Part shown: positions 15,169 to 38,885 of the stretch, one piece after another
Layout: every line of letters starts with the position of its first letter
Position numbering within the stretch: position 1 is the stretch's first letter
From: a virus
DNA: 63,732 nucleotides
Virus record (IMG/VR): IMGVR_UViG_3300028559_000039
Coordinates: 1-63,732 of that record
Reading direction: 5' to 3' (one strand)
The notes under the pieces: model-generated
Seen by the model: the letters and a program-made list of their open reading frames with translations, nothing else
The model's database searches: none
Told to the model about the DNA's origin: nothing
Made by a program: the position numbers and the translations under genes

Positions 15169-15211
15169 TTTCGGTTGACTTCATATTCGTCTCTCGCTAT
15201 TATGAATCATA
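15169..15211 (+). repeat. 43-nt promoter repeat, copy 1
   Basis: These bases are identical to 17020-17062 and contain a complete TTGACT-N17-TATTAT promoter. The following bases (ACCCAAACGG versus CAAACAAACGG) are also similar, so the duplicated unit includes the start of the transcript. Confidence 0.9.
15175..15203 (+). promoter_or_regulatory. Sigma70-type early promoter
   Basis: TTGACT, a 17-nt spacer and TATTAT give a near-consensus host-type promoter with predicted start about 15210. The gene at 15234 follows with a GGAG ribosome site. Confidence 0.85.
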
Positions 15212-15233
15212 GACACCCAAACGGAGACACGAC

Positions 15234-15446
15234 ATGGGTTATCAAGTTTTGAACATTTCTCAAGATTTCCGTTCTAAGTATCAGGCCCGCAAGGGCCTTG
15301 AAGGTCCCTTTTTCTACCCAAACGGTCGAGTGAGTTACTACGATCCAAAAGAAGGTGCCTACTATGATCCAACAACTGACTTTTACTTGTCGCACGAAGA
15401 ACAGACTGAACTTCAAAATATGATTTTTGACAAACTTAGGGCTTGA
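15234..15446 (+). CDS. Small early protein of unknown function
   Basis: This 70-residue Tyr-rich protein (FFYPNGRVSYYDPKEGAYYD) is expressed from its own near-consensus promoter with GGAG ahead of the ATG. The strong promoter and short coding region are typical of early phage proteins that act on the host. No known motif is visible. Confidence 0.65.
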   Translation: MGYQVLNISQDFRSKYQARKGLEGPFFYPNGRVSYYDPKEGAYYDPTTDFYLSHEEQTELQNMIFDKLRA

Positions 15447-15471
15447 CATTCCTAAAGAGATAATCTATATT
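15443..15471 (+). promoter_or_regulatory. Sigma70-type promoter for the RNA ligase
   Basis: TTGACA-N17-TATATT, followed by GAATTATAGA, the same initial sequence as downstream of the promoter at 17656. Predicted start is about 15478. It overlaps the end of the preceding gene. Confidence 0.85.
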
Positions 15472-15500: not shown

Positions 15501-16073
15501 ATGAACTACGATTTCCCGCATATCACTAACATATCTGATGTTTTGCCGGCGATTGAAGGTCGCCCCGAATTTACAGTAGCCCAGAAGGAAGGCTACACGG
15601 TCATCAACTACAATGTGATGTTTGGGGATACGTTTGACTGTAACATTCGCCGTGAATGTCGTGGTATCATCTTTGATGTGGAGACCGGTGACATCATTCG
15701 TCGTCCTCTTTTCAAGTTTTTTAATATCAACGAGAGAGACGAGACGCAGTTGCATAATTTAGACTTCTCCAAAGAACATTGGGTCGATACCAAACTCGAC
15801 GGATCAATGATTGCTGCGTTTATGCATGAAGGCGAAGTCGTGTATGGTACAAAAATGGTCGCTCCAGACTTCCACGAGCTTGTCAAGAAGTTTGTAGATG
15901 CATCTGATGTGGATTACGAAGGCTTCTGTAGTAAAGTAATTGCAGATGGTTATACGCCAATCTTTGAGTTTATGCATCCGCAGAAGAGGATTGTTATCGA
16001 CTATGGCAAAGAGCCGGCACTTACCCTGCTAGCTGTTCGTCATATGGTAACCGGGCAATTTCAACAACTATAA
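15501..16073 (+). CDS. rnlA: T4 Rnl1-like RNA ligase, N-terminal half
   Basis: The 190 residues match the N-terminal half of T4 RNA ligase 1. They include the ECRGIIFD motif, the nucleotidyl-accepting motif I TKLDGSMIAA (Lys at about 97), and motif III/IIIa-like PIFEFMHPQKRIVIDY. The ORF ends at TGQFQQL, which aligns with T4 TGEYISY. The missing motifs IV and V are on the next ORF at 16135. The two ORFs total 382 residues against 374 for T4 Rnl1, so little or nothing is lost. Whether this is a two-subunit ligase, a recoded gene or a broken gene is open. Confidence 0.85.
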   Translation: MNYDFPHITNISDVLPAIEGRPEFTVAQKEGYTVINYNVMFGDTFDCNIRRECRGIIFDVETGDIIRRPLFKFFNINERDETQLHNLDFSKEHWVDTKLDGSMIAAFMHEGEVVYGTKMVAPDFHELVKKFVDASDVDYEGFCSKVIADGYTPIFEFMHPQKRIVIDYGKEPALTLLAVRHMVTGQFQQL

Positions 16074-16085
16074 AATACTTTAAGA

Positions 16086-16121
16086 GGGTCTCTACAGTAA
16101 CGTAGGTCACCTCTTTTAACA
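16086..16121 (+). other. Hairpin between the two RNA ligase ORFs
   Basis: Six base pairs (AAGAGG with CCTCTT) enclose a symmetric internal loop and a second helix (TCTAC with GTAGG) capped by AGTAAC. It is followed by TTTT, so a weak terminator is possible. It fills most of the 61-nt spacer between the two halves and has no counterpart in a normal ligase gene. Confidence 0.6.
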
Positions 16122-16134
16122 TGGGGAACATAGT

Positions 16135-16713
16135 ATGATCCAAAATCTTATTCGTGAATATAATATTCCTGTAGTTGAACAGCACGGCTCTGTAGAGGAT
16201 CCTAAAGCTTTTATGGATTACGTCCATGATTTGAAAAATGCAGAAGGCTTTGTTATTCGTTGGGCTAATGGTCATCGTGTAAAGATCAAGGCTCATGAGT
16301 ACCTTCAGATTCATAAGGCTAAGGAGGCTATCCTGCAGGATCGCAACATTGTCGAACTGATTCTTGAGGAACATCTTGATGATGTCAAGGCGCATCTTAT
16401 CGATGAAGATCGTGTTCGCATCACTAAGTTCGAATCTGACTTCAATAACGCAGTCTATCGGGTAGTTAATAAGATTCAAGCTGAACACCTTACACTGAAA
16501 GTTACTGGTATGGATCGAAAAGCTTTTGCTCTTAATGAAGCACAGAAGCATGACGCATTCGTCCGCCCGATCCTTTTCAGAATCTTCGATGAGTATACTC
16601 TGCCGAATATCCTTCCTCTAGTGCATAATATGATTCGTAACAACCTGACCAAGACCGCACGGTATGAAGAAATTCGTGATGCGTGGTTCCCTGACGTAAA
16701 ATACAACAACTAA
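16135..16713 (+). CDS. rnlA: T4 Rnl1-like RNA ligase, C-terminal half
   Basis: The 192 residues continue the ligase. They start MIQNLIREYNIPVVE (T4 RPYLVERYEI region), then motif IV NAEGFVIRW (about 36-44), motif V RVKIKAHEY and the all-helical C-terminal domain (AHLIDEDRVRITKFE onward). A weak GGGGA lies 8 nt before ATG 16135. Its frame differs from the N-terminal ORF. If made separately it must associate with the N-half to restore adenylation. In T4 this enzyme repairs tRNA cut by a host anticodon nuclease. Confidence 0.83.
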   Translation: MIQNLIREYNIPVVEQHGSVEDPKAFMDYVHDLKNAEGFVIRWANGHRVKIKAHEYLQIHKAKEAILQDRNIVELILEEHLDDVKAHLIDEDRVRITKFESDFNNAVYRVVNKIQAEHLTLKVTGMDRKAFALNEAQKHDAFVRPILFRIFDEYTLPNILPLVHNMIRNNLTKTARYEEIRDAWFPDVKYNN

Positions 16714-17019: not shown

Positions 17020-17062
17020 TTTCGGTTGACTTCATATTCGTCTCTCGCTATTATGAATCATA
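17020..17062 (+). repeat. 43-nt promoter repeat, copy 2
   Basis: Identical to 15169-15211 and about 1.85 kb downstream of it. It places the same strong promoter in front of the AAA+ gene. Confidence 0.9.
17026..17054 (+). promoter_or_regulatory. Sigma70-type early promoter for the AAA+ gene
   Basis: TTGACT-N17-TATTAT, predicted start about 17061. The open frame extends into the -35 (TTG at 17026), but the promoter shows that translation must begin later, at ATG 17083. Confidence 0.85.
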
Positions 17063-17082
17063 AACAAACAAACGGCAGCAAA

Positions 17083-27906: not shown

Positions 27907-28749
27907 TTAGTTAACGACTTTCCAACCCTTTGCTGAAACGTACCCGCGTTCACCTCTTATTACCGCATTTAATGTACTTCTAGGGATGTCAAATGAATCT
28001 ATTAGTTCTTTCTTTGTGCAGTGCTTTTCAGTACCATCAGTATGTACAAAATTATACAATGCGGTGTCCACCTTACCATGTACTGAGGTATTTCTGCTCA
28101 TTCGCCATCCACAACATGTCTTTATATCACCGCGTATAAGACTACTGATTACTTTAAGGGATAATCCATATTGATTAGATAACTCTAGTTTTCCGCAAGT
28201 TTCTTCAACGCCGGATTCGTGGTAAAACGTGTGTACTTTATGAAAGCTCGGGTGGTTCATTCCTAAAGCATTATGCTGTGTTTCAGGTGTAATCCTCCAT
28301 CCTTTTACTGACGGTTGTTTGCCGTGAATAACTTCACTGAGATTTCCCCCGTTTAATTTATATTTGATCCGAAAATCGTACTGGGTAGATTCTTCAATCT
28401 TACCGTTGACATGATAAAAGGTGTACACTTTTTGATCATAACTAGGGTTTTTATCTCCTAATAAACCATAGTTGTTGATTCGTCCGGATGTACCCTCGCC
28501 ACCGTCAGTTCGGTTACGAAGTATACCGGTTCCTATATCTTTTCTACCATACCAACGAATCATTCTGCGTTCAATAGCCAATGCTCCGAGTTCGGTTAAG
28601 TTTCGTTCAAGGAATATGATTTTGGATTTATCTTTGGGAACAGGAACAGCATGATTCGGATCATATGCTCGTTTATCTTTGCCTTTTCCTATATAGTAAG
28701 GGGTGTTGTCACTTTTGCGTAGGTATGCGTACACATAATAAATAGTCAT
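27907..28749 (-). CDS. GIY-YIG homing endonuclease
   Basis: This 280-residue protein starts with a GIY-YIG domain: YYVYAYLR, then [13 protein letters not shown], then Glu in [11 protein letters not shown] and the NRTDGGEG end. The C-terminal 170 residues hold three repeats of HxNG(K/V)EE plus GW-type motifs ([40 protein letters not shown]), probably DNA-reading modules. It stands alone on the minus strand with AAGGAAAC before the ATG and a GATAAATA motif upstream (28813-28820). It does not interrupt a visible gene. Confidence 0.85.
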
Positions 28750-28812
28750 GCTGATGTTTCCTTCTATAGCATTAGAGTAGTTGGGGATTCGTACTCCCGC
28801 GAACTACATCTT

Positions 28813-28820
28813 TATTTATC
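28813..28820 (-). promoter_or_regulatory. Late-type promoter motif (GATAAATA) for the GIY-YIG gene
   Basis: The octamer reads GATAAATA on the minus strand, 64 nt upstream of the endonuclease ATG and back to back with a plus-strand copy at 28828. Confidence 0.5.
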
Positions 28821-38651: not shown

Positions 38652-38885
38652 ATGATCGTTTACAAAACCACCAATAATTTATTAGGTAAGTGTTTTATTA
38701 GCAAAGATGCTAATAATCTCCGATCCTATTTGGGGTCAGGCAAAGCTCTACCCAATGCCGTCAACAATCACGGCAAAGAAAATTTTGAAAAAAATACGCT
38801 AGAGAACGATAGTATAGAACTACTATCCAATGGTATGTCTATTGACGGGAAGCGATTTTGGTCTTATAAAGAGGATAATTTATAA
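38652..38885 (+). CDS. Degenerate GIY-YIG-derived small protein
   Basis: This 77-residue protein has MIVYKTTNNLLGKCFISKD and SYLGSGKALPNAVNNHGKENF. It follows the GIY-YIG endonuclease consensus (YKITN..GK.YIG, YLGSGK..AI..YGKENF), but the YIG and the catalytic Arg are lost and it stops after about 75 residues. It is a remnant or a repurposed domain. It is coupled to the fibre gene (TAATG overlap). Confidence 0.6.
   Translation: MIVYKTTNNLLGKCFISKDANNLRSYLGSGKALPNAVNNHGKENFEKNTLENDSIELLSNGMSIDGKRFWSYKEDNL

Follow-up and report, generated by a model that had tools for sequence, protein, structure and literature searches.

The window, by which we mean the whole stretch of viral DNA that was analysed (63,732 nt, positions 1 to 63,732 of IMG/VR record IMGVR_UViG_3300028559_000039), contains two neighbouring open reading frames (ORFs) that together make up an RNA ligase of the T4 Rnl1 type. 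The features of this locus, along with a homing endonuclease gene (HEG) and its leader found elsewhere in the window, are listed below; relatives of the window are designated by L numbers.

15443-15471, plus strand: sigma70-type promoter TTGACA-17-TATATT, 11 of 12 consensus matches, 5' of the ligase N-half
15501-16073, plus strand: RNA ligase N-half, 190 aa, with motifs I (KLDGS), III (FEF) and IIIa
15635-16243, no strand: mosaic tract around the split, unlike L006 and like the HEG-bearing L002 and L003
16027-16116, minus strand: 3'-end remnant (C-terminal 30 codons) of an antisense GIY-YIG HEG, overlapping the end of the N-half up to 16073 and the spacer from 16074
16074-16134, plus strand: 61-nt spacer, read as a HEG deletion scar plus the ribosome-binding region of the C-half (GGGGAACATAGT-ATG)
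16082-16115, plus strand: hairpin AAGAGG/CCTCTT with an inner helix, within the HEG-derived sequence
16135-16713, plus strand: RNA ligase C-half, 192 aa, with motifs IV (EGFVI) and V (KIK) and the T4_Rnl1_C domain
27907-28749, minus strand: GIY-YIG HEG, behind the leader of the next line
28767-28817, minus strand: leader stem-loop with TAAATA, directly 5' of the GIY-YIG gene

The two ORFs matched adjacent parts of one enzyme. The N-half was assigned by Pfam to RNA_lig_T4_1 (PF09511, 4e-21) and the C-half to T4_Rnl1_C (PF20819, 8e-9), and in phrog_562 (RNA ligase 1, 377 positions) they aligned to positions 27-192 and 209-370, respectively. Motifs I, III, IIIa, IV and V are present together with the Rnl1-specific C-terminal domain, and the intact homologue from L006 matched the T4 Rnl1 structure (PDB 2c5u) with E=2e-26. 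The N-half ends in TGQFQQL followed by TAA, the C-half begins with MIQNLIREYN in the +1 frame relative to the N-half, and the split falls between motifs IIIa and IV and spares every catalytic motif. These assignments confirm what a sequence-only reading of the locus had proposed, namely an RNA ligase divided between motifs IIIa and IV by a 61-nt spacer, with its halves in different frames. That reading had also held that the junction loses at most a few residues and that this is a plausible place to divide the protein. Because the junction of the intact ligase of L004 (TGSYLPYVVMKSYATSWNIPVVK) has about the same number of residues as that of the window (TGQFQQL+MIQNLIREYNIPVVE), next to no residues were lost at the split, and in an AlphaFold model of the intact L006 ligase (pLDDT 92) the junction maps to a loop that follows the strand formed by residues 194-202, the motif-IIIa strand. 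The promoter at 15443 presumably drives both halves in the window. The same spacer occurs in a second IMG/VR record that matches the window at 100% identity over 12.6 kb and may stem from the same material. Around the ligase we also noted a 56-bp direct repeat, 95% identical, at 15169-15224 and 17020-17075; each copy lies 5' of a different gene and contains TTGACT-N17-TATTAT (cggttgacttcatattcgtctctcgctattatgaatcata), and the element reads as a repeated early-type promoter.

Relatives with an uninterrupted ligase, which the sequence-only reading had proposed as a comparison, do exist. L006 and L008, whose sequence on either flank of the ligase gene is 91-94% identical to that of the window, encode an intact enzyme of 402 aa; most of the relatives classified below likewise have an intact gene. 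L002 and L003 have a ligase split at the same point as the window, with a complete minus-strand HEG in the gap, which in L003 is Seg-like and of the GIY-YIG type (phrog_314, homing endonuclease) and in L002 combines GIY-YIG with a helix-turn-helix (HTH) array. Between these two kinds of relative the ligase of the window is a mosaic: compared with L006 in 60-nt steps along the gene, it is 85-100% identical at residues 1-40 and from about residue 240, and it sides with L002 and L003 at residues 46 to about 240. Informative sites favouring L006 and L003 number 191:9 in the flanks and 44:162 in the centre (Fisher P about 1e-58). The split site falls within the mosaic tract, which is what homing of the interrupted allele with co-conversion of its flanks would produce, and either direction of transfer fits: the window may have received the HEG-bearing centre, or L006 may have been healed by recombination, gaining an uninterrupted centre. 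The intact ligase of L006 (5347-6552) itself has a centre strongly unlike that of the window, although the remaining compared stretch is 91-94% identical.

When the L003 HEG was searched against the whole window, its best match lay at the split: residues 226-255 aligned to 16116-16027 on the minus strand at 63% identity (E=1e-6) and with no stops. The 3' end of the L003 HEG lies inside the ligase N-half on the opposite strand, 36 of the 39 spacer bases after the N-half stop are identical to L003 at the DNA level, and comparison of the minus frame of the spacer with L003 sets EVTYVTVETLLKY against KVTYVTIATLLKY. The part of the match inside the spacer is short, about 14 codons, and the rest runs antisense to conserved ligase sequence, which explains it in part. 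The tail in question is a domain common to the HEGs, whether GIY-YIG or HNH, at the ligase site of L062, L083, L186, L221 and L223, and a hidden Markov model (HMM) built from these five finds the L003 tail with E=1.4e-5. With L003 added, the HMM ranks the minus frame of the window first of 1713 window ORF stretches (E=0.02); the remnant is reached by profiles that contain L003 or by direct comparison with L003, and not by the HMM built without it. The tail alone had no match in the annotated phage collection, and the domain link is therefore drawn through relatives at the ligase site. Since the L003 tail is a genuine HEG domain common to other HEGs, the HEG came first and the spacer second. 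Between the halves of the ligase there is a HEG remnant in the window and a complete HEG in 13 relatives.

All ten conserved minus-strand codons of the spacer are identical to L003. Ligase synonymous sites are near saturation (pS 0.78), so the spacer is too conserved for an old neutral scar, which suggests either that the HEG was exchanged long after the ligases had separated and was recently lost in the window, or that the spacer is functional. Selection might, for example, keep the spacer as a regulatory RNA, whatever its origin, in balancing the two halves or as a processing site. Its near identity to L003 against saturated synonymous sites would fit such a role, as would the hairpin that the sequence-only reading had described, which is present with an outer stem (AAGAGG at 16082-16087, CCTCTT at 16110-16115) and an inner helix (16091-16095 with 16102-16106). 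The 44-nt core of this hairpin (-12.3 kcal/mol, z -3.0) folds better than 496 of its 500 shuffles, and its counterpart in L003 can fold too. The structure is nevertheless modest, and over the whole spacer, which 51 of 500 shuffles equalled, it is unremarkable. In L003, moreover, the same bases encode the HEG, which explains their conservation there; in the other HEG-less splits the ligase halves are 10, 1-2 or -11 nt apart, and no hairpin is present there; and the spacer element is represented by two sequences only. On these grounds we consider a selected regulatory RNA unlikely. A search with Rfam covariance models of the window, L002, L003 and eight other split loci gave no match to a group I intron or other RNA. 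A weak terminator, another of the functions suggested for the hairpin, is unsupported, as the T-run overlaps the stem and the hairpin did not pass a terminator scan. The suggestion of a small mobile insertion came close and was wrong in detail, the spacer being what appears to remain of a HEG of roughly 0.8 kb.

Three profile-guided scans of IMG/VR yielded 129 distinct N-halves, which were classified as 106 intact (including L230, which has another interruption at about 267/271), 20 split (C-half found in 19) and 3 undecided. The proportion of 20 in 129 overstates the frequency of splits because split members served as seeds in two of the three scans; in the first, for which relatives of the window were the main seeds, 12 of 80 loci were split. 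Every one of the 20 splits is at the same position, with one side at HMM positions 197-201 and the other at 199-208 of 393. In the annotated phage records that were checked and list both N- and C-half ligase matches, the matches lie within a few codons of each other, i.e., the gene is intact. The ligase tree groups the window with L002 and L003 in a single clade (100% support), and on it the split label requires at least 8 changes, compared with 19 for shuffled labels, 6 of the changes being forced by strongly supported branches. This many changes at a single codon position fits a sequence-specific endonuclease and not repeated random mutation.

The HEGs at the split are always antisense and belong to two families, GIY-YIG (L002, L003, L062, L074, L179, L186, L221 and L223) and HNH (L083, L089, L115, L185 and L192). 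Their C-terminal tails cut across this division: an 'LLKYF...PYxEQ' tail is found in the GIY-YIG genes of L003, L062, L186, L221 and L223 and in the HNH gene of L083, and an HTH-array tail in the GIY-YIG gene of L002 and the HNH genes of L089, L115 and L192. Judged from these sequences, the target-binding tails would be modules exchanged between nuclease types at one target site, with HMM support for the first tail. Four splits have almost no insert, namely those of the window (61 nt), L060 (10 nt), L063 (1-2 nt) and L137 (an 11-nt overlap). The sister of the HEG-less L060, L062, has a HEG, and their N-halves are 94% identical at the amino acid level; no HEG remnant was recognised in the short spacers of L060, L063 and L137. 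The gap in L079 and L144 is about 380 nt and contains no gene. Small sense-strand ORFs unrelated to endonucleases take the place of the HEG at the ligase site of L072 (1741-1974), L077 and L147 (3173-3538); that of L147 is a different gene, and the L147 contig has no ligase C-half.

HEGs often settle in intergenic positions, and the order of events could have been the reverse, with a point mutation or small insertion splitting the ligase first, HEGs later using the spacer as a safe site, and the window never having had one. The splits of L063 and L137, with almost no insert, would suit this order. The polymerase gene of Aeromonas phages 44RR and 25, split into 43A and 43B and associated with an IC-UTS and seg43, offers a parallel for which the order of events was left open (PMC2988022); the gene 43 spacer of 44RR is 49 nt, and the sister phage has a HEG at that place (records NC_005135 and NC_008208). 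As in those phages, a short untranslated hairpin spacer splits an enzyme gene here. The phages 44RR and 25, however, have a HEG in sense orientation, whereas that of the window was antisense and left a coding remnant inside the spacer, which answers for this gene the question left open for the 44RR polymerase spacer (PMC2988022). Homology of the window spacer to the coding end of the L003 HEG, a HEG domain shared at this site, together with the repeated changes at one codon position, makes a split that preceded the HEG improbable.

Fission across a catalytic domain would usually inactivate an enzyme, and the two ORFs could be decaying parts of a dead ligase. Yet all 19 split pairs retain motifs I, III and IV, and motif V matches as a K.K pattern in 17 of the 19. 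Comparison of split relatives gives a dN far lower than dS for the N-half and the C-half alike (L002/L003, N-half 0.15/0.96 and C-half 0.28/1.94; L060/L062, N-half 0.04/0.34 and C-half 0.15/0.43). The same split persists across deeply diverged clades of the ligase tree as well. A pseudogene is thus very improbable, and the random decay in both halves that the sequence-only reading had named as evidence against a working ligase is not seen. The two-subunit ligase emerges as the best supported of the four readings offered there because both halves are under purifying selection, the motifs are kept and the split is stable in many relatives; such stable separate halves had been counted in advance against a mobile or bypass element. 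Different selfish genes have hit the same spot while the enzyme has stayed in two pieces, and the split therefore appears to be both tolerated and stable. The C-half has its own TTGACA-type promoter beside the HEG start in L002, L003 and several others, and this promoter is absent in the window.

The interruption of T4 gene 60 is about 50 nt long, has a hairpin and is linked to the HEG mobA. The spacer described here resembles it in size, hairpin and HEG link, and programmed bypass of the gene 60 type, or frameshifting, could in principle fuse the ORFs across the hairpin (core z -3; a 61-nt gap near the 50-nt bypass gap of gene 60; almost no residues lost on joining), but there are no matched take-off and landing codons (the codon before the stop is CTA, and CTA is absent from the first 19 codons of the C-frame), the C-half starts from an ATG of its own that is preceded by a purine-rich site, and sister phages with the same two halves have HEG-filled gaps of 600-1000 nt and in several cases a separate C-half promoter, which leaves this proposal with next to no credibility.

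The HEGs of the ligase site also share features outside their coding regions. Ten of the 13 have an own-strand TAAATA late-promoter-like motif followed by a 5' stem-loop, in which all cells are paired and 19 compensatory cells are spread over 7 of 10 pairs (covariation 0.61 vs 0.22 for shuffles). A covariance model of this leader identified the copy before the GIY-YIG HEG of the window (58 bits, E=2e-15) and further copies before HEGs in L041, L051 and L223. An exact-pattern scan of IMG/VR found at least 84 leader copies, with the late-promoter motif in 83 of the matches listed; among the listed copies, 80 have a following ORF, and nearly all of these 80 precede a GIY-YIG or HNH HEG-like ORF. 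The stem-loop had no match in Rfam, and is likely a shared expression module of phage HEGs. Hairpins of T4 HEGs mostly sequester the ribosome-binding site, a non-sequestering hairpin having been noted only for seg43 of phage 25 (PMC2988022); the leader covariance model R1 found no match in phages 44RR and 25, seg43 included. A PF01541 search of the window found no match despite the GIY-YIG-like HEG present, a negative that we do not trust.

The observations that the halves belong to one ligase, that a HEG remnant and a mosaic tract lie at the junction, that the split recurs and that selection on both halves is purifying together lead us to the following history, to which we assign a probability of about 0.87. 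In an ancestor, a HEG would have entered the RNA ligase 1 gene in antisense orientation, in the loop between motifs IIIa and IV. This would have left two ORFs, one closed by a stop codon shortly after the insertion point and the other gaining a start codon and a ribosome-binding site of its own. The split allele would then have spread by homing, taking along a flanking tract of the ligase, and the lineage of the window would later have deleted nearly the whole HEG, leaving the 61-nt spacer whose minus strand still encodes the HEG C-terminal end. The ligase would never have re-fused, its halves being translated separately from what is probably one transcript and, we infer from sequence, most likely assembling into an active two-subunit enzyme. 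More broadly, we lean towards the view that one loop of Rnl1 is a recurrent fission site. GIY-YIG and HNH HEGs, with target-binding tails that can be swapped between them and one portable expression module in common (late promoter, 5' stem-loop and M-x-I-Y start), would invade it in antisense, and after loss of the HEG the ligase would remain a stable enzyme of two subunits, its junction being almost perfect in some cases.

The locus joins the genes in pieces made by HEGs, a group that includes gene 43 of 44RR and 25 (PMC2988022). HEG-linked fission of an essential enzyme gene into two ORFs has a precedent in nrdA of Aeromonas phage Aeh1, which is split by the freestanding HEG mobE and whose products still work together (Friedrich 2007, as cited in PMC2988022). 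Unlike Aeh1, where the HEG is still present, the window has a HEG reduced to a scar, in an RNA ligase gene whose site was hit many times by different HEGs. RNA ligase 1 is likewise split with an inserted ORF in Acinetobacter phage 133 (rnlA-A/rnlA-B), but near HMM position 99, within the N-terminal part, and by a sense-strand ORF. No description of an Rnl1 split at the present site was found in the literature searched, subscription papers being mostly outside its reach. As far as the accessible literature shows, several aspects are new: which gene is split and where, the antisense placement of the HEG, the repeated arrival of HEGs from different families, end states that lack a HEG, and a coding remnant from which the order of events can be fixed. 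Intact genes, splits with a HEG, splits with a HEG scar and splits without an insert form a graded series at one site, on which one can test the idea that selfish endonucleases convert one-piece enzymes into multi-subunit ones for good. Two-part RNA ligases could naturally be drawn from split Rnl1 pairs, and the leader RNA that the HEGs have in common suggests that phage homing endonucleases from different families rely on one portable module for their expression.

Traces of HEGs were also seen away from the ligase. A 77-aa ORF of the window at 38652-38885 (plus strand) corresponds to the N-terminal part only of a Seg-like GIY-YIG endonuclease, with 37% identity over residues 4-56 of the L003 HEG and GATAAATA upstream, and is probably a second decayed HEG in the window. 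Around 143-174 of L283, the HEG leader stands before a terminase large-subunit gene, the two being separated by just a short broken ORF; this is probably a further scar of a deleted HEG.
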